Notes: a model not told the origin generated them from the sequence alone. Numbered from the stretch's first letter, positions 7,739 through 53,709 are shown. The stretch: 64,000 nt of DNA from Rhodospirillales bacterium (GCA_018666775.1 JABIXC010000007.1:316015-380014), one strand, 5' to 3'. Numbers and translations: made by a program.

Positions 7739-7830
7739 GGTGGTTCTCATTCTTTGAGTTTCCTATATCCTGTTGGGAAATCAACGCGCCTGAATAAATG
7801 TGCGCGACCTTATGGGAGAGGATGCCGCTA

Positions 7831-8907
7831 ATGGACGGCCAGAACGACAAGCTGCAAAAGCTGGAAGAGGCTATGAAGGCGTTTAACGTCTTTGGCCAAT
7901 GGCAGGTCGGGGCTAACCGCCCTGAAAATGTGGTCACCGGTCCCAATGGCCAGCGCATTGTCGAACCCTTGCCATCGGGGGTGCCCCATATCTGGCCATG
8001 GAAAGACCTTTACCCGTTTCTTGCCAGTTCACGCGAAGCACTGACCGACAGCTTCACCGCAAGACGAAGCTTGATTCTGACCAATCCGGGGCTTGGGCGC
8101 GGCACCACCCAGACAATTTTGGCCGGCATCCAATCCATCGGCCCCGGCGAAATTGCCTGGGCCCATCGCCACACCGTCACGGCATTGCGGTTTTGCATCG
8201 AAGGCAACAGGCGCGTTTTCACCGTCGTTGATGGCGATGCCTTGATCATGGAACCTTACGACCTGATTTTGACCCCGGGCCAATGCTGGCATGATCATCA
8301 CAACGAATCCGATCAACCCGCCGCATGGCTGGACGTTCTTGATGTGCCGTTGCTTTTGGCATTAAACCAGAATTTCTACGAAGAACTGGGCCCGGCCACC
8401 CAGGAACAAAACGATTCTCAAGCGCCAACATCGCCCCACCTTCGACCCGCATGGAAAACCACAAACACGTCGAGTGTGGGGGCATATCGCTATCCATGGG
8501 CCGAAACGCGCGCCCAACTGGATGCCATGGCTGACGGGGACACATCCCCCTATGACGGCGTTGCCCTTGAATACACCAATGCTCAGGGTGGGCCGACGCT
8601 GAAAACGCTTAGCTGTTGGGTGCAATTGCTGCCGCCAGGATTTAAGGGTAAACCCCACCGCCACAGTTCCAGCGCCGTCTATTTCGTGATCGGCGGCGAA
8701 GGGCGCACGGTTTTGGATGAACAAAACATGGCTTGGGAAAAACATGATAATTTTGTCATTCCCAACTGGACATGGCATGCCCATGAAAACAATTCCAAAA
8801 CGGAACCCGCCCTTTTGTTTTCCGTCAACGACACGCCCCTTTTACAGGCATTTGATTTTTACCGGGAAGAACCGGAAAATACACTCGCGCGCAACGCGCA
8901 TCCTTAA
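7831..8907 (+). CDS. gentisate 1,2-dioxygenase-like bicupin protein (cupin 1)
   Basis: 358-aa protein with two cupin barrels, related to gentisate, salicylate and 1-hydroxy-2-naphthoate 1,2-dioxygenases, which open aromatic rings with Fe(II) and O2 in the cytoplasm. First cupin: AWAHRHTVTALRFCIEG, with the two iron histidines, and WHDHHNE as the third-ligand region (about residues 108-160). Second cupin: KPHRHSSSAVYFVIGG and WTWHAHENN. ATG 7831 is preferred over ATG 7822 and the further upstream GTG, because GGGAGAGG at 7814-7821 abuts 7822 but is 9 nt from 7831. It is followed 17 nt later by an HDO-type gene; the same cupin-HDO pair recurs at 12747-14495. The true substrate is unknown. Confidence 0.82.
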   Translation: MDGQNDKLQKLEEAMKAFNVFGQWQVGANRPENVVTGPNGQRIVEPLPSGVPHIWPWKDLYPFLASSREALTDSFTARRSLILTNPGLGRGTTQTILAGIQSIGPGEIAWAHRHTVTALRFCIEGNRRVFTVVDGDALIMEPYDLILTPGQCWHDHHNESDQPAAWLDVLDVPLLLALNQNFYEELGPATQEQNDSQAPTSPHLRPAWKTTNTSSVGAYRYPWAETRAQLDAMADGDTSPYDGVALEYTNAQGGPTLKTLSCWVQLLPPGFKGKPHRHSSSAVYFVIGGEGRTVLDEQNMAWEKHDNFVIPNWTWHAHENNSKTEPALLFSVNDTPLLQAFDFYREEPENTLARNAHP

Positions 8908-8924
8908 CAGATAAGAGAGAGAAC

Positions 8925-9656
8925 ATGGCTACAAAAACAATCGACCCCAAGGCGTTCAAAGAACTTGAAAGCGAGCTGACGGAATTGGCCAATGACCAGT
9001 TCGAAAGCGATGCCTACAAGCGCATGCTGGCAGCGCCGTATACGTTAAAGGGAGCACAGCAATTTTTCATGCAGCACGCCATGTTCAACCTCAATCGTCG
9101 CGATTGCTGGGGCTATGTTCTGGCCAAATCGCCCCTGCCGGTTAAAAAGCTGGTCTGGGAACACGAAGAAGAAGAGCTTGATGGTGTGCCCCACCGGGGC
9201 GGGCTTAATCATTACGAACTGGCTGTTAAACAGGGCGAAGTGCTGGGTTTGACCCCTGAAGATTATTACAACGCGCCGGTCATGGATGGGACCTACACCT
9301 GTTCCATGGCCTGGGCACAACTGGCCCAATCCAGCTCATGGCTTGAATCTTGTGCAGCCTCTTCTGCCCTTGAATATTCCAATTCCGATGACATCATCCG
9401 GGAAGGGGCGCTTTCCAGACGCATGGGGGCCAAGCTTGAAAAAGACCTCGGCATTCCCATTCGCAAGCAAGATTCCAATGCCGAACACATGGTTGCCGAA
9501 TTGGAACACGCCCAGCTGCTTTTAAATGTTGCCAACATGTATGGCGACACGGAACTGGCCCGCGAGCAAATTGTCTCTGGCGCCAAACAAAGCTGGGCCA
9601 TTGATCGGGTCTTCCGCAATTTCCTTGGGGAACTTCTGGAAAAACACGCAGATTAG
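8925..9656 (+). CDS. heme-oxygenase-fold diiron oxidase-like protein (HDO 1)
   Basis: 243-aa all-helical protein of the TenA/PqqC/CADD superfamily. The metal-ligand set expected of HDO enzymes is visible: Glu81 or Glu84 in WEHEEEEL, His96, Glu150 in SALEYSNSD, and the His-x3-Glu-x2-His cluster at 188/192/195 (AEHMVAELEH). This matches in order and spacing what is known for CADD (E81, H88, E142, H174, D178, H181). PqqC and TenA themselves do not need such a set, so an oxidase is more likely. HDO enzymes do oxidative decarboxylation, N-oxygenation or C-C scission; the reaction here is unknown. It is translated with cupin 1 (ribosome site AGAGAGAGAAC). The stop lies 3 nt from the convergent VOC gene. 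Confidence 0.78.
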   Translation: MATKTIDPKAFKELESELTELANDQFESDAYKRMLAAPYTLKGAQQFFMQHAMFNLNRRDCWGYVLAKSPLPVKKLVWEHEEEELDGVPHRGGLNHYELAVKQGEVLGLTPEDYYNAPVMDGTYTCSMAWAQLAQSSSWLESCAASSALEYSNSDDIIREGALSRRMGAKLEKDLGIPIRKQDSNAEHMVAELEHAQLLLNVANMYGDTELAREQIVSGAKQSWAIDRVFRNFLGELLEKHAD

Positions 9657-9659
9657 GGT

Positions 9660-10082
9660 TTAGGCCCCGGTGCAATCCGTAATTTCGAGACCATTGCCAT
9701 CGGGATCGTGGAAATAGACGTGCCTGCCCGGAAATGAATTGTGCTGGGCATCGGGATTGTCGCGTTTGCCTTTGGCTTCCATCAGTTCAACCCCATGGGA
9801 TTCAAGGCACGTGACCGCCGCGTCATAGGCATCTGCATCAACGATAAACGCATGATGGAAAATGGTGTCGCCGGGGCCATTGGGCGGCACGTGGCGACCG
9901 GTTTGGGCCAACACAAAATACGAGCTCCCGGCCTGCATAAATGACATGGTGTGTTTTGAATTCTGGCGCAGCAATTCACAGCCTAGAACATCGCGATAAA
10001 AATCCGTCGCCGGATCCAGATTTTTCACACCAATGGTAATGTGCAAAATGCTTTTGGGTTGAATGCCTTGTGTGTCGGTCAT
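9660..10082 (-). CDS. VOC (glyoxalase/bleomycin-resistance/extradiol dioxygenase) family protein
   Basis: 140-aa vicinal-oxygen-chelate protein. Seen: SILHITIGVKNLDPATDFYR (first beta-alpha-beta-beta-beta unit with the first metal histidine), TIFHHAFIVDADAYDAAV (second unit), and the closing HVYFHDPDGNGLEI with the final Glu ligand. That is a full metal-binding complement for a single-chain dimeric VOC enzyme. It is the last gene of the minus-strand unit cupin 3, HDO 2, UbiD 1, cupin 2, VOC, so it may isomerise, hydrolyse or cleave a product of that pathway. Starts at ATG 10082, 22 nt after the cupin 2 stop. Confidence 0.85.
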   Translation of the reverse strand: MTDTQGIQPKSILHITIGVKNLDPATDFYRDVLGCELLRQNSKHTMSFMQAGSSYFVLAQTGRHVPPNGPGDTIFHHAFIVDADAYDAAVTCLESHGVELMEAKGKRDNPDAQHNSFPGRHVYFHDPDGNGLEITDCTGA

Positions 10083-10104
10083 CTGTTATCCCCCACTTAA
10101 AGGT

Positions 10105-11241
10105 TCAGGCTTTTGCCTTTGAATCATAAACTGATTCATCAATGTAATCGCCCATCCCTGATTTAGCCCCGTTTTTAGCCAATTCTTCCAGAAAAATGCC
10201 ATGAATGCGCGGGTCCTGATCTTCGTAATTAATCTGGCAACCGCCTTGCTGGATCGACACATCAACGCCCAAAAAGACATGGCGTTTTTCTTCCGTCAGC
10301 GGGTAACGCAAACTGCCCAGCGCAATGGGCATATAGCGCGCGGGCTCAGCGCCTGTATTAAAATGCTGATGGAACATCTGTCCGGGTGGCGCAAAGATAG
10401 TGCCGGGATGCCAATCAACCCGGGTGTAATCTGCATCCCCTTCGTACCAGAACAACGAATGGCCCTGGCCTTTCAAAAGCAAAACATGGAAATCCGGGCC
10501 GTGGCGATGGCCTTTTTTATACGTGCCCACCGGCATTTCTGAGGTGTGGACATGCATCACCCCATCGGCCAGCGCAAACCGCATGTTTGAACTGCGCGCG
10601 CCGCGCTGTTCCCAACCTTCTAATTTAAACCCGGCAACATCGGCCACAAAATTTGTTTCCCACATAAAGCGCCCGGGCTGGGTTTCGATGCGCCGACCTT
10701 CGCCTTCAAAATAACTGTCATCGCCCATGCGGCCCTTGAACACGCACGGGTTATCGAAAATGAATGCATCATCATGAAACATATTCATGACCGCCGTCAG
10801 GTTGTTGCCGGAAATCAGCCGCGCCTTTTCAGTGCCCGATCCATTGAAATGCTGGTAGCGCGCATTCAGCGGCAGGGCAAACAGGCTGTTTGGACCCCAT
10901 TCAAAAGAATGCTCTTTTCCCTCCACCTCTATGATCGTGCTGCCGTGGCCCGAAAGAACATAGATCACTTCTTCGTACAGATGTTTCTGGGGCATGCATT
11001 TGGCACCCGGTTTCAAATCGATCACAAAGATCGACATGAAATCACCCCGCCCAATCAGATGCACGAACGCCGCATCGGTATCCATCCGTGCCCAATGTCC
11101 GGTTTCGACCGTGTGCAAATCGACCCCGAATTCTTCGACAATTGGCACGCCTTCGCCTTTGGCCCATTCGAGATACGGGTCACGCAGAAATTCATCAGAC
11201 AGTTTCTGGCCCGGTGCCAGTTTTGAATCGGGGGCAATCAT
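10105..11241 (-). CDS. two-domain cupin protein (cupin 2)
   Basis: 378-aa protein with two cupin domains that belongs to a different branch from cupins 1, 3 and 4. First domain about residues 90-140 (KHLYEEVIYVLSGHGS, NARYQHFNGSG). Second about residues 255-310 (GHRHGPDFHVLLLKGQG with H-x-H plus later H, then GQMFHQHFNTG). It ends with an extension rich in charged residues. The ATG at 11241 shares bases with the UbiD 1 stop (ATGA, 11238-11241). This start is preferred over a longer in-frame reading because the overlap implies translational coupling with the decarboxylase. Probably a non-heme metal oxygenase or isomerase acting on the decarboxylated product; substrate unknown. Confidence 0.82.
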   Translation of the reverse strand: MIAPDSKLAPGQKLSDEFLRDPYLEWAKGEGVPIVEEFGVDLHTVETGHWARMDTDAAFVHLIGRGDFMSIFVIDLKPGAKCMPQKHLYEEVIYVLSGHGSTIIEVEGKEHSFEWGPNSLFALPLNARYQHFNGSGTEKARLISGNNLTAVMNMFHDDAFIFDNPCVFKGRMGDDSYFEGEGRRIETQPGRFMWETNFVADVAGFKLEGWEQRGARSSNMRFALADGVMHVHTSEMPVGTYKKGHRHGPDFHVLLLKGQGHSLFWYEGDADYTRVDWHPGTIFAPPGQMFHQHFNTGAEPARYMPIALGSLRYPLTEEKRHVFLGVDVSIQQGGCQINYEDQDPRIHGIFLEELAKNGAKSGMGDYIDESVYDSKAKA

Positions 11242-12713
11242 TTTTGCAAAAACTCCAGTGTTTCCGCCCATTTACTGCGGACTTCTTCAGCGTAATCGGG
11301 CGCAATGGCATTGACCTTTGGAAAATCATCTTTCCAGTGCCAGGGACGCACCGCATAGGCAATCATGCGCGATGTGGTGATGTCATCAATGGCGCGTTTT
11401 TCAGGCGACAGGGCCGGGTCAATATGTCCAGTCCAACATCCATCGATAATATCGGTCTGGGTATTGGGGTCCCAACGCGTGGCCATGGCCCACATCACTT
11501 CTGCTGGATTAGTGATATCAATATCATCATCCACCACAATCACCATGCGCGTCATATAAGCCCCCGGCCCACATCCCGCTGTGACCAGCCCCGCCATCTT
11601 GGCGTGGCCGGCATGCAATTGTTTGATGGACACAATCAAAATAAACCGTGATCCACCACCCGGCAGTTGCCACACGCCCTTGACCTCTGGCACGCCTGCG
11701 GCCTCAATCGCATCCCAGAGCGCTGCGACCCTTGGTATCTTGATTTGGCGCCCGGGATAATTGGGTTTTACCGGCGGCTGGCCAAGGATGATCAGATCAT
11801 CGCGGTGATAAATCGTTTTGACATGAAGAACCGGTTCCGGCCTTTCGTCTGATGCGTAATAACCGGGCCATTCCCCAAAGGGACCTTCGGTACGGGCGTC
11901 TTCTTCTGGTAGTGGCATGTAGCCTTCAAACACCAGCTCACCCTCGGCCGGCAGGGGCAGACCGGTAACCTGTCCAGGGACAACCTGTATAGGGCGCCCA
12001 ATGCGCCCACCAGCCATGGCATATTCTGTATCACCGGACTTTGCCGCAGCGGCAGCCGCCACACCCAAAATCGGGGCCTGGCCCACACAAACCGCCATGG
12101 GGCACGGTTTACCCATGGCCCACCATTTGCGCCGGATAACATCACCGTCTTTACCCGGTTCGATAAAGATGCTGAGCGTCGTTTTATCGGCCACCGACGT
12201 CCGGTAGGTGCCAAGGTTAACCCAATCGCTGTCGGGGTCTTTAACAATCACCATACATTCGGTGCCAATGTAATCTCCACCGTCTTCTCCATGCCAGCGC
12301 GGGGCCGGAAACTTGAGAACATCGACATCCTTCTCAGTCACAACATTTTCAAACAACGGGCCGGTCTTGACCATTTCAGGGGGGATCGGGCTGGATTTTT
12401 CCTTTGGCGTTGCCCGGTATGCCTTCACCGCATCAAGGGTAAGGTCGCCCACAATAAATTTTGCCGTGCGCACATTGGACAGGACGCGAAATTTCGGATC
12501 AAACCCCGGGATTTTATCAAACAACAAAACCGGGGGATAAAGATGCTCATTGCTCATCTCGAACAGGGCACCCATTTCACGGTCGGTACTGGCACCGGAA
12601 ACGTGTTCAAGCTCATCTGCTACCTCTGCTTGACGCAGAAACTCCCTGAGATCGGCCATGGCCTCATTTTTATTAATGCCGGAATTTCTTTCCGGTTCAG
12701 ATTTTTTTACCAA
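11238..12713 (-). CDS. UbiD family prenyl-FMN-dependent decarboxylase (UbiD 1)
   Basis: 491-aa reversible (de)carboxylase of the UbiD family, normally acting on aromatic, heteroaromatic or alpha,beta-unsaturated carboxylic acids with prenylated FMN, a metal and potassium. Seen: DSDWVNLGTYRT (Asn and Arg of the cofactor pocket), VIRRKWWAMGKPCP, the catalytic acid pair in TEGPFGEWPGYY, and DDDIDITNPAEVMWAMATR near the C-terminus. The start is TTG at 12713 after AGGAG; an internal ATG at codon 19 is the alternative. It is cotranscribed with HDO 2 upstream and coupled to cupin 2 downstream. It is a close paralogue of UbiD 2 at 14663. No UbiX prenyltransferase gene is in the window. Confidence 0.92.
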   Translation of the reverse strand: MVKKSEPERNSGINKNEAMADLREFLRQAEVADELEHVSGASTDREMGALFEMSNEHLYPPVLLFDKIPGFDPKFRVLSNVRTAKFIVGDLTLDAVKAYRATPKEKSSPIPPEMVKTGPLFENVVTEKDVDVLKFPAPRWHGEDGGDYIGTECMVIVKDPDSDWVNLGTYRTSVADKTTLSIFIEPGKDGDVIRRKWWAMGKPCPMAVCVGQAPILGVAAAAAAKSGDTEYAMAGGRIGRPIQVVPGQVTGLPLPAEGELVFEGYMPLPEEDARTEGPFGEWPGYYASDERPEPVLHVKTIYHRDDLIILGQPPVKPNYPGRQIKIPRVAALWDAIEAAGVPEVKGVWQLPGGGSRFILIVSIKQLHAGHAKMAGLVTAGCGPGAYMTRMVIVVDDDIDITNPAEVMWAMATRWDPNTQTDIIDGCWTGHIDPALSPEKRAIDDITTSRMIAYAVRPWHWKDDFPKVNAIAPDYAEEVRSKWAETLEFLQK

Positions 12714-12746
12714 CGTGTTTCTCCTGTTTACGCCACTTGTTTGAAA

Positions 12747-13469
12747 TCAAGATGCGGGCAATGCCGCCATCATGTCAGATAGAACCGTCTTCCACACCCG
12801 GTCAATAGCCCAGCTTTTACGCAACCCATCCAGAATTTGTTCCATGTCCTGCGCAGTGTGCATGTGATCTTCGGCAATTTCCATCAAGATATGGGCGTGT
12901 TTGACATCGGCCACGGCGTGTTCCGCATTGGATGCCTGCGCTTTTAGGGGAATGCCAAGATCACGGTTCATAATCTCGCCGATCCTGCGTGAATTGCTGC
13001 CATCTTTTAAAATTTCATCAGAATTAGATAGTTCAAGCGCCGCACATGCCGCCAACGATGTCAGCCATGGGCTTTGAGACGCCAGTTGAAGCCACGCATA
13101 ACTGCACGTCACAAGGCCATCACAGGGCGGCGTGGTGATAAAATCGTCTGGCGTTAAGCCCAGCAACCCGCCTTCCTTGACGCTGAGGGTGTAGTGATCA
13201 TCGATGCCATCTTCGGGGCGACCTTCCAGTTCATCACGTTCGTGATCCCAGATTTTCTTTTTCACATCCATCGGCGCCAAGGCCTGCGCATGGGCCCAGC
13301 AATCGCGCCGGTTCAGGGTCCAATGGGTGCGCTGGATGATGTAGGTTCTGGTGCGTTCTTTGGTGAATTTCAGGCTGTAAAGATGGGCATAACCGGACGA
13401 GCAGACCTGTTCATTGGCCATCATAAATGCCTGGGCTTGTAAATCCGCCAATTCATCTTTATCCGGCAT
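12747..13469 (-). CDS. heme-oxygenase-fold diiron oxidase-like protein (HDO 2)
   Basis: 240-aa paralogue of HDO 1. Shared blocks: FNLNRRDCWGY/WTLNRRDCWAH near residue 55, LGLTP-D near 105, LELSNSDEIL, and KSWAIDRVW at the end. The probable metal ligands are retained: Glu77 or Glu80 (DHERDELEG), His92, Glu146, His184, Asp188 and His191 (AEHAVADVKH). The second acid is Asp here and Glu in HDO 1. It lies between cupin 3 and UbiD 1 in one minus-strand unit (15 nt after cupin 3, 33 nt before UbiD 1). Repeated pairing with a gentisate-dioxygenase-like cupin and with UbiD suggests a role in the same aromatic-acid pathway. Reaction unknown. Confidence 0.78.
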   Translation of the reverse strand: MPDKDELADLQAQAFMMANEQVCSSGYAHLYSLKFTKERTRTYIIQRTHWTLNRRDCWAHAQALAPMDVKKKIWDHERDELEGRPEDGIDDHYTLSVKEGGLLGLTPDDFITTPPCDGLVTCSYAWLQLASQSPWLTSLAACAALELSNSDEILKDGSNSRRIGEIMNRDLGIPLKAQASNAEHAVADVKHAHILMEIAEDHMHTAQDMEQILDGLRKSWAIDRVWKTVLSDMMAALPAS

Positions 13470-13484
13470 TGATGCGCTCCTGAT

Positions 13485-14495
13485 CTACTTTCCAGCCCTT
13501 GGGGCCGGAATGGACTGACCGCCCAAATGTGACATTGTTTCTTCAAAAAACATACCCAGCGCTTTAAGCAGCGGGGTGTCATGCACTGAAAATAAAATGG
13601 CACCATCTCCATCAATACTATGGTGGTGATGGGCCCAATTGGGAATGCAAAAACTATCCCCTGCCCCCCAAAATAATTCCCTATCACCAATTTTGGTCCG
13701 CCCTGATCCCTTCACCACATGATAAACGGCGCTAGAGGTACGCCGGTTTGGCTTTGTTTCAAACCCCGGCTTCAACCATTGGGCCCAACAACTGAGCGTT
13801 GGCAGGACGGGCCCACCGGTGATGGGGCTCACATATTCCACAAATACCCCGTCATCCCCCTCGTCATCATCATGGCCAGCGTACAATTTTTTCTCCATGT
13901 CGGCCCAAGCGTAGCGCACCGATGGGGATTTTGGCACATCCAGAACGGGCTGGGTTTCATCGCCAAAGGCTTCGTAAAAGGGCTGGTTCAGTGCCAATAC
14001 CAAAGGCACATCCAGCACATCAAGCCACACAGCATTGCCGCCCGTCTCATTGTGGTGATCATGCCAGGCCCACCCCGGGGTCAGCACCAGATCATAATTT
14101 TCCATAGGCGCCGGTTCGCCATCCACCACTGTGTAAAGATCGCTGTTACCCTTGATGACAAACCGCAAGGCATTGATGGAATGGCGATGGGCCCAGGCCA
14201 CTTCGCCGGGGCGGATCATTTGCATGCCCATGGCAATGGTGTGGGTTGTGCCCCGGCGTTCCAGATCAGGGTTGGAAAACATCAGGCTGCGCCGTGCGGT
14301 AACGCTTTCTGGCATAACAATGCAGGCTTCTTCCAAAAGTGCCGATACATCATCCCAACGCCAAAGCCTGGCACCACCAGCAGGACGCGGGCCATCGGTC
14401 ACCTGCTGCAAAAACGCATCCGCCTTCCACTGGCCATAAATATTGGCCTTGGACAGTTTTTCATTAAACGCGGCCATTGCATCGTCTGTCGCCAT
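13485..14495 (-). CDS. gentisate 1,2-dioxygenase-like bicupin protein (cupin 3)
   Basis: 336-aa paralogue of cupin 1 with the same domain order. First cupin: AWAHRHSINALRFVIKG and WAWHDHHNETGG. Second cupin: KPNRRTSSAVYHVVKG with WAHHHHS. In the second barrel the H-x-H of the relatives has become N-R-R, so any metal should sit only in the first barrel, as in gentisate dioxygenases. ATG 14495 is chosen because GGAGGG (14505-14510) abuts the upstream ATG 14504 but is 9 nt from 14495, the same arrangement as in cupin 1. First gene of the unit cupin 3, HDO 2, UbiD 1, cupin 2, VOC. Divergent from UbiD 2. Confidence 0.82.
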   Translation of the reverse strand: MATDDAMAAFNEKLSKANIYGQWKADAFLQQVTDGPRPAGGARLWRWDDVSALLEEACIVMPESVTARRSLMFSNPDLERRGTTHTIAMGMQMIRPGEVAWAHRHSINALRFVIKGNSDLYTVVDGEPAPMENYDLVLTPGWAWHDHHNETGGNAVWLDVLDVPLVLALNQPFYEAFGDETQPVLDVPKSPSVRYAWADMEKKLYAGHDDDEGDDGVFVEYVSPITGGPVLPTLSCWAQWLKPGFETKPNRRTSSAVYHVVKGSGRTKIGDRELFWGAGDSFCIPNWAHHHHSIDGDGAILFSVHDTPLLKALGMFFEETMSHLGGQSIPAPRAGK

Positions 14496-14568
14496 GGCAC
14501 ACATCCCTCCGGCACCGGTTTATTCAAAAAATGAAATGCATTTTGATTTTTAATCTTGCATAATTGCC

Positions 14569-14594
14569 CCCCCTTGTCTATCCCTGACAGGGGG
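14569..14594. promoter_or_regulatory. inverted repeat in the divergent cupin 3 / UbiD 2 intergenic region
   Basis: CCCCCTTGTC (14569-14578) faces GACAGGGGG (14586-14594), complementary apart from one bulged T, with a TATCCCT loop. It lies midway in the 167-bp gap between two divergent catabolic operons, next to an AT-rich stretch (14520-14565) that includes AAATGCATTT. It could be a shared operator or an RNA hairpin in the leader of the UbiD 2 operon. Confidence 0.35.
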
Positions 14595-14662
14595 TAAAAC
14601 CCGCCAAAAGGGGCCAAAAACAAGGCAAAGACCCCGGCCAAGACAGGGAGAATGCCAGACCA

Positions 14663-16156
14663 ATGGCGAGCAAATCTAAAACGCCTGCGCCCAGTTCAGC
14701 GCGAGGCACCAACGACCAGCGCACGGCCGCCATCAGCGACCTGCGCGAATTTTTGCGCATTTCCGAAGAACGGGGTGAACTTCATGTCGTCTCAGGGGCC
14801 AATCCAGATCAGGAAATTGGTGCCCTTTATGAACTGAGTTTGGAAAACCCATATCCACCGGTTTTATTGTTCGAAGACATGGTCGGTTGTGATGCCAATT
14901 CGCGCATCATCATGAATGTCCGCGCATCCCGTTTAATGGTCGGCGATGTAAACATGGATGCGGTTCGCGAATACCGGGCCACCCGGGACAACCGCAAGGT
15001 CGAACCCATTGAACCCGAACTGGTCAAAACCGGCCCTGTTTTTGAAAATAGTATGGCCGGCGATGATGTCGATATCTTCCGCTTTCCCCGCCCCATCTGG
15101 CATGCCGAAGACGGCGGGGCATATCTTGGCACCGAATGTGTGGTTTTAATGCGCGACCCTGATTCTGATTGGGTCAATGTTGCCACCTACCGCACCCAGA
15201 TTCACGACAAGCGCACCATCACCGTGTTTACGGAACCCGGCAAACATGGCGATGTCATCCGACGCAAATATTGGGCCCGGGGTGAACATTGCCCCGTAGT
15301 CGTGTGCTTTGGACAGGCCCCGATTTTAGGCAGTGTCGCGCGCGTTGGCTATCCCCAGGGGGTGTCTGAACTGGCCATCGCCGGGGGCCAAATCGGTCGT
15401 GCCATCAAGATCGTCGAAGGCCCTCAAACCGGCATCCCGATCCCGGCCGATGCCGAAATTGCCTTTGAAGGCGTAATGCCACCGCCCGAAGAAGAAACCC
15501 GTGTTGAAGGCCCGTTTGGGGAATGGCCCGGATATTATTCTTCCGGAATGCGCCCCGAACCCGTGGTTCGGGTTGGGGCTATTTATCACCGCACCGATCC
15601 TATCATCATTGGCCAACCCCCGGTTCGCCCAACCTATCCCGGACGCCACACCCATATTGCCGGTTCTGCCGCCCTTTGGGATGCATTGGAAGCCGCAGGC
15701 GTGCCTGGCATTACCGGGGTTTGGAAAATGCCCGCAGGCGGCACCCGCTTTATCAATGTGGTTTCAATCAAGCAATTGCACGCAGGCCACGCCAAAATGG
15801 CCGGGTTGGTGGCAACCGGTGCGGGCCCTGCCGCCTTCATGGGACGGATGACCATCATCGTGGATGATGACATCGACATCACCAATCAGGCAGAAGTGAT
15901 GTGGGCCATGGCAACACGATGGGACCCCAAAACCCAGACCGATATTATTGACGGGTGTTGGTCTGGCTATCTTGACCCAACGATCGATCCCGTGAAACGG
16001 GAAGCTGGCAACATGACCAACAGCCGCATCATCATAAGTGCGGTCCGCCCATGGCACTGGAAAGATGATTTTCCGAAGGTCAATGCAATTTCCCCGGAAT
16101 ATGCCGCAGAAATTCGCAAAAAATGGAAAAACACTCTCAAATTTTTAAACGCCTAA
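14663..16156 (+). CDS. UbiD family prenyl-FMN-dependent decarboxylase (UbiD 2)
   Basis: 497-aa paralogue of UbiD 1, similar along its whole length (for example DLREFLR, YPPVLLFE, EDGGAYLGTEC, GDVIRRKYWARGEHCP). Cofactor-pocket residues are kept in DSDWVNVATYRT, and the catalytic acid pair in VEGPFGEWPGYY. The C-terminal DDDIDITNQAEVMWAMATRWDPKTQTD is nearly identical to UbiD 1. The N-terminal 25 residues are Ala/Ser/Thr-rich and specific to this copy. ATG 14663 follows AGGGAGA. First gene of the plus-strand unit UbiD 2, HDO 3, UbiD 3. Expected cytoplasmic, acting on an aromatic or heteroaromatic carboxylate. Confidence 0.92.
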   Translation: MASKSKTPAPSSARGTNDQRTAAISDLREFLRISEERGELHVVSGANPDQEIGALYELSLENPYPPVLLFEDMVGCDANSRIIMNVRASRLMVGDVNMDAVREYRATRDNRKVEPIEPELVKTGPVFENSMAGDDVDIFRFPRPIWHAEDGGAYLGTECVVLMRDPDSDWVNVATYRTQIHDKRTITVFTEPGKHGDVIRRKYWARGEHCPVVVCFGQAPILGSVARVGYPQGVSELAIAGGQIGRAIKIVEGPQTGIPIPADAEIAFEGVMPPPEEETRVEGPFGEWPGYYSSGMRPEPVVRVGAIYHRTDPIIIGQPPVRPTYPGRHTHIAGSAALWDALEAAGVPGITGVWKMPAGGTRFINVVSIKQLHAGHAKMAGLVATGAGPAAFMGRMTIIVDDDIDITNQAEVMWAMATRWDPKTQTDIIDGCWSGYLDPTIDPVKREAGNMTNSRIIISAVRPWHWKDDFPKVNAISPEYAAEIRKKWKNTLKFLNA

Positions 16157-16178
16157 AAAACCCAAAAAGGAAGAAAAC

Positions 16179-16928
16179 ATGACCATTTTTAAAATGCCGG
16201 AAAAAGAAATCGGCCCCTACCTCAATGATCTTGAGAAAAAAGTTTCTGATCATTGGCAAAACACCGTCGAACAAACGGCCTTCATGCAGGATTTGGTCAG
16301 CGGCAAACTTGATATGGAAACCCTCCAGCTTTTTTATACAAACTGGGGGGCCTTCGTGCCTGTCATCAATTCTTTGTACATGGTCCAGTTTCACAAGCAC
16401 CTTTCCTTCTTCGTTTCCAACGTTGACCTGATGGAAACCTATACCCACAAGGTGCTCGACGAATTTGGACATCCCTCACCTCCGGGGCACATTAAAATCC
16501 TACTTTCAACTGGCCAGGCCCTGGGTCTGACCAATGACCAAATCCTGACCCAGCCCATGCTGCCTGAAGCCCGCGGGTTGACGGATTTTCACCGCACCTT
16601 GGTCAATGACGGGAATTTTCAGGAATACTGGGCTTCAGTTTTATGGGAAGGCGCGTTTGGCCATTCCTGCCTGAAATGGTTTAACGCCCTGACCACCCAT
16701 TATGGGCTGACGGCCGAACAGGCGGATTATTTCCACAAGCACCATGAAGCCGATACCCAAGATCATCTGGGCCGCGAAGCCCATTCAGAGGTAACCAAAC
16801 ATATCCTCAACCGTCTGATGGTAGATGGGTTTGATGAACGTCCGGGATACCCATTTGAATATTGCGCCCTGACACCAGTGGATCTTTATTGTGCGATGCT
16901 TGATGGCGTCTATGCAAAGACCCACTAA
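16179..16928 (+). CDS. heme-oxygenase-fold iron-containing oxidase-like protein (HDO 3)
   Basis: 249-aa TenA/PqqC-superfamily protein, clearly more distant than HDO 1 and 2 are from each other. It shares the LGLT-D block near residue 118 and helices carrying likely ligands: Glu95 (KVLDEFGH), His104, Glu157 (VLWEGAFGH), and a histidine-rich cluster YFHKHHEADTQDH at 185-196. In that cluster His188-x3-Asp192 fits the family, but the last His is four residues on (196) rather than three. It lies 22 nt after UbiD 2 and 22 nt before UbiD 3, so HDO and UbiD genes are paired in both halves of the island. Function unknown; a diiron or monoiron oxidase is inferred. Confidence 0.72.
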   Translation: MTIFKMPEKEIGPYLNDLEKKVSDHWQNTVEQTAFMQDLVSGKLDMETLQLFYTNWGAFVPVINSLYMVQFHKHLSFFVSNVDLMETYTHKVLDEFGHPSPPGHIKILLSTGQALGLTNDQILTQPMLPEARGLTDFHRTLVNDGNFQEYWASVLWEGAFGHSCLKWFNALTTHYGLTAEQADYFHKHHEADTQDHLGREAHSEVTKHILNRLMVDGFDERPGYPFEYCALTPVDLYCAMLDGVYAKTH

Positions 16929-16950
16929 TTAAAAAATAAGGGAATAGCCC

Positions 16951-18546
16951 ATGGCCCGTTCGTACCAAAATTTAAGTGAATACATCCAGGTGCTCGATGA
17001 TGCAGAAAAGCTGGTGCGCGTCACAGTCCCGGTCAACAAAGACACGGAACTGCACCCCTTGGTCCGCCTCCAGTTCAGGGGGTTGCCTGAGGAAAAGCGT
17101 AAAGCCTTTCTGTTTGAAAATGTCTATGACAGCACGGGGCGAAAATATGACATTCCCGTTCTGGTCGCTGCCATGGCCGGGTCATCTGATATATACGCCT
17201 TGGGCATGGGCTGTCCAACCGAAGAAATTCCGGATCGTTGGCTCCAGGCCCTTGAATCACCGCTCGACCCCGTCACCGTAGAAAGCGGGCCGTGTCAGGA
17301 CGTGGTGATTAAAGGGGAACAGTTGGAAAAAGAAGGGCTTTCCCTTTTGCCCATTCCCATTTCAACGCCGGGGTTTGACAATGCACCCTATACCTCTGCC
17401 TCGCACTGGGTGACCAAACACCCCGAAACCGGCATGCATAATCTTGGTAATTATCGCGGCATGGTCAAAGCGCCAAACCGCATCGGTACCCTGCCTGCCA
17501 TGCTTGGCGTTGGCATGCGCGACCACATTGATGCCTGGCGCGAAGCCGGCCATGAGCGCCTGCCCGCCGCCGTGGTCATTGGTGCCCCACCGCACGTCAC
17601 CTATACCGCCGTGACCCGCATCCCCAATGACATGTGTGAATATGATGTTGCCGGTGCCATTGCCGGAAAACCGCTTGAGCTGGTGAAATGCCTTACCCAG
17701 GACCTGATGGTGCCCGCAGAGGCTGAGATTGTCATTGAAGGAACGGTGCCCGCCAGCGAAGTGGAAATGGAAGGCCCGTTTGGGGAATTTCCGGGCTATA
17801 TGGCACAGCGCGATTACAGTTTCTTTATGGACATCACCTGCATCACCATGCGCAAAAAACCCACATATTTAGCCATTCTGAGTCAGGTGCCGCCCAGTGA
17901 AAGCAGTAAAATGCGCCATATCGGGCGCGCAGCGGCGGCCAAAAAGTTTCTCCATGATAACGGGTTCGACAACGTCATCGATGTCAATTATCTGGAATGC
18001 ACCGGCTCTAACGCCTTGGTCGTGATCAAAATAAAGAAACGCGAAGCCGACGATGGCGCCAAAGCGCTGGACCTTTTGACCACCAAATTTATCGGCAAGA
18101 TCGCCGTGGCCGTTGATGAAGACATTGACATCACCAGCCTTGAAAACATCATGTGGGCCATTGCGTGGCGCAACCAGCCCTACCGCGATGTCAAAATTGT
18201 CGACACCCCCCTGTTGGCCCTGGACCCCTCGTTAGCACCACCGGGCGAATCCCGGGGGTTGGCAACGGACGCCGGCGCAATGCCGCGCAATACCAGTCTG
18301 ATGATTGATGCCACCATGGCATGGCCTTACCCACCCATTTCGCTCCCCAAACGCGAATACATGGAACGCGCCCAGGAACTATGGGCCGAGTTGCAACTGC
18401 CGGGGCTTGAATTACAAAACCCGTGGTATGGCTATTCGCTGGGTGCGTGGACCAAAGAGCTGGAAGAAGAAGCCCAGCTTGCGGTCGAAGGGCGGCACTA
18501 TGAAACCGGGGAAAAATTGCGCGGACGTCGCAAACGCATCGACTAA
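16951..18546 (+). CDS. UbiD family prenyl-FMN-dependent decarboxylase (UbiD 3)
   Basis: 531-aa UbiD-family enzyme from a different branch than UbiD 1 and 2. Seen: NLSEYIQVLDDAEKLVRV at the N-terminus, MHNLGNYRGM (cofactor-pocket Asn and Arg), EMEGPFGEFPGYM (catalytic acid pair), HIGRAAAAKKFLHDNGF, and DEDIDITSLENIMWAIAWR. The C-terminal 60 residues carry a mixed-charge tail ending RGRRKRID. The longer chain and N-terminus resemble UbiD/Fdc-type and 4-hydroxybenzoate or phthalate-type decarboxylases. Ribosome site AAGGGAATAG before ATG 16951. Last gene of its unit, converging on the IclR gene. Two UbiD types in one operon may mean two successive decarboxylations, or a heteromeric enzyme as known for some UbiD systems. 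Confidence 0.9.
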   Translation: MARSYQNLSEYIQVLDDAEKLVRVTVPVNKDTELHPLVRLQFRGLPEEKRKAFLFENVYDSTGRKYDIPVLVAAMAGSSDIYALGMGCPTEEIPDRWLQALESPLDPVTVESGPCQDVVIKGEQLEKEGLSLLPIPISTPGFDNAPYTSASHWVTKHPETGMHNLGNYRGMVKAPNRIGTLPAMLGVGMRDHIDAWREAGHERLPAAVVIGAPPHVTYTAVTRIPNDMCEYDVAGAIAGKPLELVKCLTQDLMVPAEAEIVIEGTVPASEVEMEGPFGEFPGYMAQRDYSFFMDITCITMRKKPTYLAILSQVPPSESSKMRHIGRAAAAKKFLHDNGFDNVIDVNYLECTGSNALVVIKIKKREADDGAKALDLLTTKFIGKIAVAVDEDIDITSLENIMWAIAWRNQPYRDVKIVDTPLLALDPSLAPPGESRGLATDAGAMPRNTSLMIDATMAWPYPPISLPKREYMERAQELWAELQLPGLELQNPWYGYSLGAWTKELEEEAQLAVEGRHYETGEKLRGRRKRID

Positions 18547-18561
18547 ATTAGAGCGACTAGA

Positions 18562-19407
18562 TCAAGATGCGATCGCAGCACTCGGGCTTGCGCCAAAACT
18601 GCCCGATACGTCGTCAGCCGCAGCCTTGAGCTTCTTTGCATATTGACTGTCTGTGCCTAAATCAACAACGCCTGCAACCCCGATAAGCGAAATTGCCATA
18701 ATGATTTCGCCATCAGAACCAAAAACCGGGGCCGCCACCCCAACAATGCCCAGCTCGCTCTCGCCGGTGTTATCGGCAACCCCGTCACGACGCACGCACG
18801 CGCGCAAGGTATCAACATCTTCTATCGTCAGGGTTTTTGATCCGCTGGCTTGATGGAGGGGCGCTGCAAGTTCAAGTTCCACCAGCGACTTGGTTTTTTC
18901 TTCTGGCAGATAACTGACAAAGACCTTCCCGCTGGCGGTGCGCAAAAGGGGTAATTTCCGCCCTTCTCTGATACGAACGGCGGTTCCCAATTCACCTTGT
19001 TCCCAGCGAATTACCATAGGGCCATCGGATGCCCAGACCACCAAAACAGAAACCAATCCGGTTTCCGCCGTTAGCTTGGTCAAAGCCTCCGTTCCCATCT
19101 TGACCGTATCCACACGCCCAAGCGCGGCCACCCCAAGGGTGACCAACAATGGGCCAAAATCATAGCGACTCGATGACGGGTCCTGGCGCACCGCACCAGC
19201 CTGAATCATGCCCGCCAGAAAACGGTGGGTGCGGCTTGCTGGCATCCTTGCGGCCTGTGCGATTTCACCCAACGTGCCCGGTCGCCCCATATCCGCCATG
19301 GCTTTGAGAATAAACAGGCCAATACCCACAGAACGATTGGCATTTTTGGGGGATCTGGGGTCTTCAAACCCTGCCGTGTACTCAGATATGGGGGAATGCT
19401 TTGTCAT
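18562..19407 (-). CDS. IclR family transcriptional regulator
   Basis: 281-aa IclR-type regulator. N-terminal winged helix-turn-helix about residues 25-90 (LGEIAQAARMPASRTHRFLA, recognition helix PASRTHRFL), followed by the GAF-like effector domain (LRTASGKVFVSYLPEEKTKSL, GVADNTGESELGIVGVAAPV). Such proteins usually sense aromatic acids or their degradation intermediates and control adjacent catabolic operons. It is the third gene of a probable unit with the flavoprotein at 20621 and cupin 4. It is well placed to control them and the divergent amidohydrolase operon through 21815-22022. It ends 15 nt from the convergent UbiD 3 stop. The effector is unknown. Confidence 0.9.
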   Translation of the reverse strand: MTKHSPISEYTAGFEDPRSPKNANRSVGIGLFILKAMADMGRPGTLGEIAQAARMPASRTHRFLAGMIQAGAVRQDPSSSRYDFGPLLVTLGVAALGRVDTVKMGTEALTKLTAETGLVSVLVVWASDGPMVIRWEQGELGTAVRIREGRKLPLLRTASGKVFVSYLPEEKTKSLVELELAAPLHQASGSKTLTIEDVDTLRACVRRDGVADNTGESELGIVGVAAPVFGSDGEIIMAISLIGVAGVVDLGTDSQYAKKLKAAADDVSGSFGASPSAAIAS

Positions 19408-19513: not shown

Positions 19514-20590
19514 TTAGTCAGGGGCGGCTTCTTCTCTGACTTCTTCTCTGTGGAACCCAAGAGACCGCATCACGGGTTCATCATTAATGGAAAACAGAAT
19601 GGCCGGTTTGTCTGATCCGTTTTCATGGGCGTGCCAGGTCCAAAGGGGGACCACGAAACTGTCCCCCTTTTTCCAGTCAAACCGCTGATCCCCGATAACG
19701 GTGGTCCCTTCACCTTCATACACGTGATAAATGGCCGCGTGGGTGTGTCTGTGAGCGCTATATTTTTTGCGCGCCGCCAACATTTGTATGTCACATCCCA
19801 CCGTCGGCAGGGTTGGGCCATCGGTCTCTGGATTGACGTAGTGCAAAAATGCGCCATCAACTGCATCCAGTTCATCCCCGCCTTCGGCCAAGCCATAAAG
19901 GGCGGCTTCGGTTTCTGCCCAGGGATAGCAATACGCAGCACGGGGTGCGGGCGGTTGGTCCTGTTTTCCGCCCACGGTGGCCGGGCGCAACGTGCCAAAG
20001 CGTTTAGAGGACCAACCCACATCGCGGGTCAGGTCTTGATGAGGGGATTGATGGGGTTCGCCAAAACCGATCTGGAAATGCACGATCAAGGGTGCCACTG
20101 CCCCATCCAGCCAGATGGTTGGAACTGATCCATTATTGATATGGTCATGCCAGCTCCAGTTTGGCGTGGTGATCAAGTCACCCCGGGTCATGAAAAACTT
20201 TTCCCCGTCCACCACCGTGCAGCCTTCACCATTGCCTTCCACCACGAAACGGACCGCATCCATGGTATGGCGATGACACGGGGCCATTTCGCCTGCCAAT
20301 ATCATTTGCGCCCCCAGCACCAGATTGGGGCTGGTCCCTAATTCAAGGTCCGGGTTTTGAAAACCGATAAACCGGCGGTGCGCTTCTTCGGGCGGAATAT
20401 GATCGACTGCTTCGAACAGGGTTTTATGAATGTCGTCCCAACCCCACAAAAATGGCTTATAACTGGGCGTTGGCTCCCGGTATCCCACCGTTCGCGATGG
20501 GATCATCCAATACCCGACCAGGTTTTTATCCCGCACGCCCTGATCAAAACCATCTCTGGATGCAGCACTATCTTTTTTCTTTCCAGCCAT
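19514..20590 (-). CDS. gentisate 1,2-dioxygenase-like bicupin protein (cupin 4)
   Basis: 358-aa bicupin protein of the gentisate dioxygenase-like family. First barrel: APCHRHTMDAVRFVVEG and WSWHDHINNG, giving the His-x-His plus His iron site. Second barrel: SAHRHTHAAIYHVYEG and WTWHAHENG, also with complete histidines. The N-terminus is Lys/Asp-rich (MAGKKKDSAASRDG). It lies between the acyl-CoA-dehydrogenase-like flavoprotein (stop 30 nt upstream) and the IclR gene, suggesting hydroxylation followed by ring cleavage: a flavin monooxygenase makes a dihydroxy aromatic and the cupin opens it. That order is inference. Confidence 0.82.
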   Translation of the reverse strand: MAGKKKDSAASRDGFDQGVRDKNLVGYWMIPSRTVGYREPTPSYKPFLWGWDDIHKTLFEAVDHIPPEEAHRRFIGFQNPDLELGTSPNLVLGAQMILAGEMAPCHRHTMDAVRFVVEGNGEGCTVVDGEKFFMTRGDLITTPNWSWHDHINNGSVPTIWLDGAVAPLIVHFQIGFGEPHQSPHQDLTRDVGWSSKRFGTLRPATVGGKQDQPPAPRAAYCYPWAETEAALYGLAEGGDELDAVDGAFLHYVNPETDGPTLPTVGCDIQMLAARKKYSAHRHTHAAIYHVYEGEGTTVIGDQRFDWKKGDSFVVPLWTWHAHENGSDKPAILFSINDEPVMRSLGFHREEVREEAAPD

Positions 20591-20620: not shown

Positions 20621-21814
20621 CTAAAATTGCCCGTGGGGATCAAGGCCCAGCGCATAACTGCCATACATGGTGGACCCCGCATCCCAGTTCAAACTGATGT
20701 GATGAGAGATGGCATGAATGTCGCGCCATGCACGCCCCACCCGATTGTCTTCATAGGTGCCGGTCACCCCCGTCACACTGTAAAGCCCATCAATCGCCCC
20801 CACACACAGCTTCAGAATATAGGAATGGGTCAATCGATTGCGCATGCGCATGTCCAGATCAACCGCGCCGCCACCATTGACCACATCGTTGGTTTTTTTC
20901 AGGTCGCGTAAAATCATCAGGCGCGCCGCATCATAGGCGGCCGTGGCTTCGGCCACCCGGGTCTGGACCCCGGCAAACCCCGCCATGGAACGCCCCCCCG
21001 CCATGGCCAGCGTTTTGCGGGTTTTATTAAGATCAATAAAATCATCAAGCGCGCCCTTCAAGGCCCCAAGAGCCGGGCCTGTGATCGCCGTGGGGATACA
21101 TGAAAACATCGGGATGCGGTAAAGCGGCCGGTCTTGCGCTTTGGCACCCGGGCTGGTCCCGGCCTTTGCATCTTCCAGATCAAGACGCCGGTGCGATGGC
21201 ACAAAGACATCCTTGCAGACAATCCGCTTGCTGCCCGTTGCAGAAAGGGCCGTGGTAAACCAGTCATCTTCGATTTTGTAATCCTTTGCTGGCACCAGAA
21301 CAAAGGCGATCACCGGTTTGTCCCCCCCGGCATCATCAGCAATGCGCACCCCAAGCAATGCCCATTGACCATGATCACAGCCGCTAGAAAAGGGCCATGA
21401 ACCGCTGATGCGCCACCCGCCATCAACGGCTTCGGCCTCCGTGATAGGCGAATAAGACCCAAAGGTGATGGCATTGGGGGCATCACCCCAGACATCCTCC
21501 TGGGCTTGCAGGGGGAAATTGGCCACCAGCCATTGGTGCATGATGGCAAGACCTGCGACCCAGGCTGTGGACGCACACCCCGCCCCAAGCACGCACGAAA
21601 TTTTCATCAGGCAGGAAAAATCGTATTCATACCCGCCAAACCGTTCTGGCTGCAGAATATGGAACAGGTCCGCTTCCCGAAGGGCTGCCATCACGTCTTT
21701 TGATACCATCCGCGCATCTTCGGCCGATGCCGCCTTTTCCCGCAACAAGGGTACCAATGCACGGGCGCGGTCCAGCAATTCATCTGGTGTTGGCTTTGGG
21801 TTTCCCCCAGTCAC
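20621..21814 (-). CDS. acyl-CoA dehydrogenase-fold flavoprotein, probable flavin-dependent monooxygenase
   Basis: 397-aa protein with the acyl-CoA dehydrogenase fold: N-terminal helical domain (ALREADLFHILQPERFGGYE, CASTAWVAGLAIMH), middle beta domain (GGWRISGSWPFSSGCDHGQW, TGSKRIVCKDVFVPSHRR) and C-terminal helical domain (GVTGTYEDNRVGRAWRDIHA). The A-STAW motif and the C-terminal RDIHAISHH pattern are those of two-component aromatic monooxygenases (HpaH-, HsaA-, DszC-like) rather than true acyl-CoA dehydrogenases. It would need a separate flavin reductase, and none is seen. GTG 21814 follows GGGGGA; an in-frame TTG at 21832 would add six residues. First gene before cupin 4 and iclR. Confidence 0.8.
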   Translation of the reverse strand: MTGGNPKPTPDELLDRARALVPLLREKAASAEDARMVSKDVMAALREADLFHILQPERFGGYEYDFSCLMKISCVLGAGCASTAWVAGLAIMHQWLVANFPLQAQEDVWGDAPNAITFGSYSPITEAEAVDGGWRISGSWPFSSGCDHGQWALLGVRIADDAGGDKPVIAFVLVPAKDYKIEDDWFTTALSATGSKRIVCKDVFVPSHRRLDLEDAKAGTSPGAKAQDRPLYRIPMFSCIPTAITGPALGALKGALDDFIDLNKTRKTLAMAGGRSMAGFAGVQTRVAEATAAYDAARLMILRDLKKTNDVVNGGGAVDLDMRMRNRLTHSYILKLCVGAIDGLYSVTGVTGTYEDNRVGRAWRDIHAISHHISLNWDAGSTMYGSYALGLDPHGQF

Positions 21815-21852
21815 GACATTTTCCCCCGGCAAAGCCCGTTTTTGGGCCGTTA

Positions 21853-21869: not shown

Positions 21870-22022
21870 TTTTACACGCTCAGGCGCAAAGTAGAATTGT
21901 TATCTGAAAAATGGACAAACCTGCCGCTTTCGCCACCCTTTAAAAATTGTCATAATAACGGGAATGATAAAAATAAATGCCAGACCCGATGAACCCTTAT
22001 GGTCTGGTCAGGGAGAGAAGCC

Positions 22023-23075
22023 ATGCCCACCATCGACGCCGATGCCCATGTGCTTGAGACGCCGGACACCTGGTCTTATATGTCAGAAGACGAGCAAGAG
22101 TTCCGTCCTCAGATTTTTACCCGGGACCCCAATGATGGGGCGCCGTACCGGGAAAACCAACGCCGTGATTACTGGAAGATCGGCGATCATTTCCAGACCA
22201 AAACCAATGTCGGCAGCGATGTCCCGGTTGAAGCCCGGGACATGGTGGATATAAAACGCAGGCTCGATCATATGAATGAGATCGGGGTGGATATTCAGGT
22301 GCTCTATCCCACCCTGTTTCTGCGCCCCGTGACCACGGAACACGATGTCGAATTGATGCTGGTCAAAAGCTATAACCGCTGGCTTGCCGATATCTGGAAA
22401 CAATCTGATAACCGCCTGCGCTGGGTTGCCATGCCGCCCCTGTTATCCATGATTGACCCGGGCAAGGTCCGGGCTGAACTGGAATTTTGCAAAGCCAATG
22501 GGGCCGTGGGTATTTTCATGCGGGGCTTTGAATGTGAAATGCTGGCAGGGCACCGATACTTCTTTCCCCTGTATGCAATGGCAGAAGAACTGGGGCTTGC
22601 CATCACCTTTCACGCGGGCAACAACAGTTTTGCCAATCACAATTCCTTTTCCCGCGATGCCGGCATGTTGATTTTCAAATTTCCGGTCATGGCGGCATTT
22701 CTGGATGTTCTGGTTCGGGGCATTCCGGAACGGTTCCCGAATTTACACTGGGCCTTTATCGAAGCCAGCGCCCAATGGGTGCCCTATATGCTGGGTGAAG
22801 CGAAAATGCGCATTGAACGCCAAGGCCGGCGCATGAGCGATCATATATTGGATGACAATCATTTTTTCATCACCACCCAGAAAAGCGATGACCTCAACTG
22901 GCTGCTGGAAGAACTGGGCAGTGATAATCTGGTTGTCGGCACCGATTATGGGCACAAGGATTCAGCAACAGAAGTCCAGGCCCTGAAACGCATGAGCGAA
23001 GATGGCAATATCCCGCCCGCCATTTTGAAATCCATTCTGGAGACCAACCCAAGCAGGCTTTACGCCCTTCAATAA
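22023..23075 (+). CDS. amidohydrolase family 2 (ACMSD-like) metal-dependent hydrolase or decarboxylase
   Basis: 350-aa TIM-barrel enzyme of the amidohydrolase-2 branch, which contains decarboxylases (ACMSD, gamma-resorcylate type) and hydrolases of ring-fission products. Seen: TIDADAHVLE at the N-terminus (metal residues after strand 1), GLAITFHAGNNSF (metal histidine), and NLVVGTDYGHKD (the C-terminal Asp needed for catalysis). ATG 22023 is used instead of an earlier in-frame start because GGGAGAGAAG sits just before it. First gene of a plus-strand pair with the flavoprotein at 23098 (22 nt gap). Probably decarboxylates or hydrolyses an intermediate; substrate unknown. Confidence 0.85.
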   Translation: MPTIDADAHVLETPDTWSYMSEDEQEFRPQIFTRDPNDGAPYRENQRRDYWKIGDHFQTKTNVGSDVPVEARDMVDIKRRLDHMNEIGVDIQVLYPTLFLRPVTTEHDVELMLVKSYNRWLADIWKQSDNRLRWVAMPPLLSMIDPGKVRAELEFCKANGAVGIFMRGFECEMLAGHRYFFPLYAMAEELGLAITFHAGNNSFANHNSFSRDAGMLIFKFPVMAAFLDVLVRGIPERFPNLHWAFIEASAQWVPYMLGEAKMRIERQGRRMSDHILDDNHFFITTQKSDDLNWLLEELGSDNLVVGTDYGHKDSATEVQALKRMSEDGNIPPAILKSILETNPSRLYALQ

Positions 23076-33512: not shown

Positions 33513-33552
33513 CTTTTTTGCTCCCTTTTTCATTTCAATCAAAACAAGATTA

Positions 33553-53589: not shown

Positions 53590-53709
53590 GATCAGGTCTC
53601 CCTTTAATTGTCTCCCAGATACAATTACTAACTGAAGCCATGCTTTTTTTTGAATACCAAAAGTGGAACACATCCCAGTTCCACCTACAAGACATCATCC
53701 AATGAAGTC

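Follow-up and report, generated by a model that had tools for sequence, protein, structure and literature searches.

The question raised by the locus described here is why genes for haem-oxygenase-like iron proteins (HDO, PF14518), an oxygen-using class known to date only from making natural products or cofactors, are placed among genes for UbiD decarboxylases and cupins. The locus lies in a stretch of 64,000 nucleotides from a Rhodospirillales bacterium (GCA_018666775.1 JABIXC010000007.1:316015-380014), hereafter called the window. Ten intact open reading frames at 7798-18546, comprising nine genes of these three types and a VOC gene, were arranged in three tight operons: cupin1-HDO1 (plus strand), cupin3-HDO2-UbiD1-cupin2-VOC (minus strand) and UbiD2-HDO3-UbiD3 (plus strand). 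The gaps within the operons were 16-34 bp, and UbiD1 and cupin2 overlapped by 34 bp with the listed starts. PF01977/UbiD_C domains were found in UbiD1-3, PF14518 above its cut-off in HDO1-3, and Cupin_2 in the cupins. An earlier note, made from the sequence alone, had described nine genes of three enzyme types in shuffled order with an HDO gene beside UbiD in both larger operons, and it was found that the gene order (HDO2-UbiD1 and UbiD2-HDO3-UbiD3 included) and the domains agreed with this description.

We estimate at roughly 0.6 the probability that the island belongs to a lineage-specific toolkit with which carboxylated aromatic acids are broken down aerobically, the HDOs being pathway enzymes. 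This reading is based on the gene content, the linkage in two lineages, the co-divergence of HDO and cupin proteins, the catalytic residues of the UbiDs and cupins, and the fold of HDO3.

Linkage of HDO genes to UbiD and cupin genes

The genome of the window (2.41 Mb, 98% complete) contained 11 UbiDs and five PF14518 proteins. The two HDOs outside the window lay on contig C17 next to triplets of cupin2-type genes, and one of the two also immediately followed a cupin3 homologue. Each of the five HDOs was thus flanked by at least one of three partners: UbiD, gentisate-type cupin or cupin2-type cupin. With 11 UbiDs and ~2300 genes, at least two of five HDOs would directly adjoin a UbiD by chance with p ~0.0008.

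In relatives, whose gene maps were made homology-first, linkage was defined as a partner within 3.5 kb of the HDO. Ten genomes of the same family carried 9-17 UbiDs each, compared with 0-5 in the other class members sampled. Homologues of HDO1/2 were multi-copy in most of the ten, and a single-copy HDO3 homologue (71-77%) was present in six. UbiD was linked to HDO3 at 7/7 loci of the family, the window's included, and the order UbiD2-HDO3-UbiD3-IclR was conserved in another genus (L073, L074). At the 23 HDO1/2 loci of the family, a gentisate-type cupin was linked 14 times, a cupin2-type cupin 12 times and UbiD 7 times. The linkage of HDO1 and HDO2 to the gentisate-type bicupin was tighter than that to UbiD.

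When 84,980 species genomes were scanned with HDO3, six metagenome-assembled genomes (MAGs) of Alphaproteobacteria and five named Deltaproteobacteria or Syntrophobacter were recovered. The latter, with HDO3 identities of 61-63%, all belonged to one distant order; their names follow NCBI and may differ from present taxonomy. Of 35 genomes of this order, 13 contained HDO3 or a close paralogue. All five MAGs had a UbiD on the HDO3 contig, in arrangements other than that of the window, and HDO3 directly preceded a gentisate-type cupin in L086 and L089. UbiD lay within 3.5 kb at 5/7 HDO3 loci of this second lineage, and at 5/10 held-out loci fetched later from eight further genomes.

The five genomes (G451-G455, loci L086-L090), in which MAG contamination was unchecked, contained 25, 36, 42, 61 and 123 UbiD matches and 5-27 PF14518 proteins each. 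Because UbiDs were so common there, the remaining PF14518 proteins of these genomes were taken as the control, and proximity was read from the DNA itself. UbiD was found within 3.5 kb of 17/37 window-type HDOs vs 3/32 other PF14518 proteins (Fisher p = 0.0008), and any UbiD or cupin partner at 24/37 vs 5/32 (p = 3e-5). According to the earlier note, its idea would fall if neighbourhood analysis showed no recurrent UbiD-HDO linkage outside this genome; the linkage recurred both in the same family and in the second, distant lineage, so the idea withstood this check. As a genomic pattern, the aromatic-acid catabolic system that the note had called possibly undescribed is well supported.

No other HDO1/2 or HDO3 was found at strict cut-offs in even samples of 398 genomes of the window's phylum, and HDO3 occurred in 2/297 genomes of the second phylum, which indicated a patchy distribution. 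Plasmid searches with HDO2 and HDO3 gave no match, and no cultured member of either lineage was met in this analysis.

Pairing of gentisate-type cupins with HDOs

Nineteen distinct adjacent pairs of a gentisate-type cupin and an HDO were collected. In the window's family the cupin preceded the HDO in 12/12 pairs, and in the second lineage the HDO preceded the cupin in 7/7; the gaps between the two genes were mostly 4-53 bp, or the genes overlapped. That the two lineages differ in gene order suggests a repeated origin or rebuilding of the pairing, and therefore favours a functional tie over plain inheritance. Cupin and HDO protein distances were correlated (r = 0.84, permutation p = 2e-4; 0.84 in the window's family alone; kinship uncorrected).

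Cupin2-type genes recurred beside HDOs as doublets and triplets in the neighbourhood maps. A signal-less NMT1/THI5-like protein was a recurrent neighbour of HDO or UbiD in both lineages (~50% identical; 12194-13186 of L041 and about 20 other loci), and it is possibly a cytosolic enzyme and not a binding protein. In L137 and L164, a gentisate-type cupin was separated from UbiD by a Pht5-like protein. L145, L152 and contig C17 had EutA-like proteins next to HDOs, and a row in L040 of the window's genome (6717-15208) held an HDO, three cupin2-type genes, an EutA-like protein, an MFS protein and a Pht5-like protein. Among these neighbours are candidates for additional decarboxylase-like enzymes.

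Active sites of the cupins and UbiDs

In cupins 1, 3 and 4 and nearly all their homologues, the three histidines of the Fe site were conserved, as were the counterparts of SDO Arg83, Arg127, His162, Trp172 and Asp174, which touch the substrate and its carboxylate (PMC11264262). These residues placed the three cupins in the wider class of gentisate/salicylate-type ring-cleaving bicupins; the earlier note had twice seen a gentisate-dioxygenase-like cupin next to an HDO, which holds for cupin1 and cupin3. Cupin2 was assigned to a different bicupin family. Because the SDO-type residues are kept, the compound undergoing ring cleavage should still bear a carboxylate beside a hydroxyl or amino group, so that a UbiD acting earlier would have to take off another carboxyl group. 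The iron site and the substrate-contact Arg, His, Trp and Asp are common to the island cupins and to gentisate, salicylate and 5-aminosalicylate 1,2-dioxygenases, from which the island cupins differ in scoring below the equivalog cut-offs and in being paired with an HDO gene.

UbiD1-3 belonged to the UbiD family, with the UbiD domain and the YR and EGPFGE motifs kept. All far exceeded the PF01977 cut-offs; in TIGR00148 (cut-off 244.85 bits) UbiD3 reached 247.6 bits, and UbiD1 (218) and UbiD2 (213) stayed below. A UbiX was present in the genome (274 bits, cut-off 188), indicating that prenyl-FMN (prFMN) can be supplied. The island UbiDs have the Pfam domains, motifs and UbiX in common with known prFMN decarboxylases (VdcC, phenylphosphate carboxylase beta type, AroY, HmfF), but they reach no equivalog, adjoin HDOs and gentisate-type cupins, and take part in a family-wide expansion of paralogues.

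Subfamilies, fold and metal site of the HDOs

The earlier note had treated the HDO genes as one type. PF14518 was indeed found in all three, but HDO1 and HDO2 formed one subfamily, with an identity of 42% in their alignment, and HDO3 another, which was CADD/PqqC-like. Across 14 sequences of HDO1/2, E, H, E and H-x3-[DE]-x2-H were invariant, with a C-terminal triad of CADD spacing, so that at the sequence level the 3H/3C ligand set is present. The assignment of HDO1/2 rests on the PF14518 scores, as a model of HDO2 built from three sequences (pLDDT 42) was too poor and was not used. In HDO3, E95, H104, E157, H188 and D192 were invariant, and an Asp or Glu, followed by an invariant His, was found at the position that we take to be His181 of CADD; in HDO3 itself these two residues are Asp195 and His196.

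The model of HDO3 (pLDDT 91.8) exhibited a seven-helix haem-oxygenase fold, which superimposed on CtCADD (1rcw) with Z 23.9 and a root mean square deviation (rmsd) of 2.2 over 212 residues. It was nearer to CADD and PqqC (Z 23.9 and 22.1) than to a TenA homologue (Z 20.7). HDO3 scored 28.6 bits against the CADD/4-aminobenzoate synthase model TIGR04305, below the cut-off of 200. The fold of HDO3 and the CADD-like ligand spacing of HDO1/2 are shared with the HDO superfamily (UndA, BesC, SznF, CADD/PabS, FlcD/FlcE, AetD, PolF). Its known members, about a dozen of them characterised, act in biosynthesis and mainly take fatty or amino acids as substrates (2026 review, PMC13108848), whereas the island HDOs stand in putative aromatic-acid catabolic operons.

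Proposed pathway and alternative explanations

Each operon would serve one pathway, with polycarboxylated aromatics as the inferred substrates. The UbiDs, with prFMN from the genome's UbiX, would strip additional carboxyl groups, and the gentisate/salicylate-type bicupins would cleave the ring between the retained carboxylate and an ortho hydroxyl (or amino) group. The HDOs would serve these pathways as O2-dependent iron enzymes. HDO1 and HDO2 would act beside ring cleavage, in all likelihood by oxidising the ring to give the substrate of the cupin, and HDO3 beside the UbiD step. The link of HDO to UbiD decarboxylation suggested earlier thus fits HDO3 better, and HDO1 and HDO2 are tied to the ring-cleaving cupin before UbiD. 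Decarboxylation and ring cleavage of a carboxylated phenol are also combined in phthalate/gentisate clusters (pht5 4,5-dihydroxyphthalate decarboxylase; nag/mab gentisate-type), and Pht5-like proteins occur in clusters related to the island. The island differs from these in using UbiD as the decarboxylase and in the added HDOs, and no maleylpyruvate isomerase or hydrolase was recognised in it.

Several points weigh against this proposal. UbiD was absent within 3.5 kb at 16/23 HDO1/2 loci of the family and at about half of the window-type HDOs of the second lineage. Orthologous loci inside one family cannot be counted as independent, and co-divergence was measured on pairs of related sequences. 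Cupins 1, 3 and 4 did not reach the gentisate 1,2-dioxygenase equivalog TIGR02272 (248, 234 and 264 vs 442 bits). No dedicated reductase, the usual need of a monooxygenase, adjoined the HDOs. The predicted metal site of HDO3 is non-canonical, because Asp/Glu stands at the place of CADD His181; the protein may bind two metals or only one, or use a shifted ligand, and a mononuclear HDO variant exists in FlcD (PMC13108848).

It was considered that the HDOs might act after ring cleavage, oxidising or cleaving the ring-opened product of the cupin, with UbiD working on an unsaturated acid further down. The adjacency of HDO and cupin is compatible with either order of steps, known HDOs catalyse C-C cleavage and desaturation (C-C breakage by UndA and FlcE; PMC13108848), and DHDPS-type aldolases adjoin some HDO clusters (L140, L150). 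This order is nevertheless unlikely, since at several loci HDO3 adjoins UbiD and no gentisate-type cupin is present, as would be better explained by a step before cleavage. An accessory role, in which the HDOs would mature or protect O2-sensitive prFMN and Fe enzymes (for example by prFMN oxidation or O2 scavenging) and would catalyse no pathway step, would account for one protein type beside two different enzyme types. We regard it as improbable: the two subfamilies each have their own partner type and HDO and cupin co-diverge, which points to substrate-specific roles, and HDO1/2 are found with cupins but without UbiD in L041, L052, L054 and L056.

Equally little weight is given to the view that the clustering is a by-product of UbiD- and oxygenase-rich genomes with crowded catabolic islands. 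The 9-17 UbiDs per genome of the window's family and the 25-123 of the second lineage are in its favour, but the control PF14518 proteins were near chance for UbiD proximity, and the tight spacing, lineage-specific order and co-divergence of cupin and HDO argue for a specific tie. That the HDO3 types are TenA-like thiamine salvage proteins with an incidental UbiD linkage is very improbable. Both TenA and NMT1/THI5 are families with ties to thiamine, and the NMT1-like neighbour recurs; however, most CADD metal ligands are present in HDO3, its structure resembles CADD and PqqC more closely than TenA, its paralogues do not share the Cys at 164, and no thiamine gene was recognised among the scanned neighbours.

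We thus prefer the reading of the HDOs as pathway enzymes. More tentatively, and with the odds somewhat against it, they might constitute a new class of catabolic enzymes that oxidise or modify aromatic rings, coupling prFMN decarboxylation to gentisate-type cleavage of polycarboxylated aromatics via a diiron or mononuclear iron step in two distant lineages. In the literature outside subscription journals, no UbiD-HDO link and no relevant HDO-gentisate link was found. If true, the proposal would open a catabolic branch of the HDO superfamily, a large and conserved group tied to UbiD and gentisate-type dioxygenases, and would offer a testable route for the breakdown of carboxyl-rich aromatic matter by uncultured bacteria.

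Gene content of the island and the rest of the window

The earlier note had ended the island at 18546, but further genes followed: an IclR regulator, a fourth cupin, two HsaA-like monooxygenases, an amidohydrolase and a protein judged by eye to be CMD-like (Table 1). For cupin1, starts at 7798 and at 7831 (in-frame M12) are both possible.

Table 1. Genes of the island and its continuation, with positions in the window
Gene and product	Position	Strand	Evidence
cupin1, gentisate/salicylate 1,2-dioxygenase-type bicupin	7798..8907	+	TIGR02272 248 bits (cut-off 442); NF049978 257 bits (cut-off 650); Fe ligands and substrate residues present
HDO1, PF14518 haem-oxygenase-like iron protein	8925..9656	+	PF14518 39.1 bits; 18 bp 3' of cupin1; H-x3-E-x2-H motif
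VOC-superfamily protein	9660..10082	-	PF00903 53 bits
cupin2, bicupin of other family than cupin1/cupin3	10105..11271	-	Cupin_2 39.5 bits; NF049978 just 25 bits
UbiD1, prFMN-type decarboxylase	11238..12713	-	PF01977 180 bits; NLGTYR and EGPFGEW motifs
HDO2, PF14518 haem-oxygenase-like iron protein	12747..13469	-	PF14518 40.7 bits; H183-x3-D187-x2-H190
cupin3, gentisate/salicylate 1,2-dioxygenase-type bicupin	13485..14504	-	NF049978 281 bits; TIGR02272 234 bits; PDB 2d40 E=9e-54
UbiD2, prFMN-type decarboxylase	14663..16156	+	PF01977 179 bits; top PDB relative 7pda E=2e-113
HDO3, second HDO subfamily (CADD/PqqC-like)	16179..16928	+	PF14518 31.7 bits; model pLDDT 91.8; CtCADD 1rcw Z 23.9, rmsd 2.2 over 212 residues
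UbiD3, prFMN-type decarboxylase	16951..18546	+	PF01977 189 bits; TIGR00148 248 bits, above cut-off
IclR-family regulator	18562..19407	-	64% homologue adjoins HDO3 in L073 and L074; kept by HDO3 operon in relatives
cupin4, gentisate/salicylate 1,2-dioxygenase-type bicupin	19514..20590	-	NF049978 283 bits; TIGR02272 264 bits; PDB 3bu7 E=3e-63
HsaA-like flavin-dependent monooxygenase	20621..21832	-	NF045629 337 bits (cut-off 450)
Amidohydro_2 protein	21999..23075	+	PF04909 54 bits
Second HsaA-like flavin-dependent monooxygenase	23098..24285	+	NF045629 180 bits

Elsewhere in the window, binding proteins of TctC-like and FbpA-like type lay at 43183-44433, 52330-53673 and 32349-33719, all on the minus strand, and their C-terminal extensions were rich in Lys/Arg. 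The two TctC-like proteins had a similar tail of ~60 residues with Cys-Lys at the end. By eye only, the open reading frame at 59494-61770 resembled an NADH-dehydrogenase-like FAD domain fused with a SelD-like domain.

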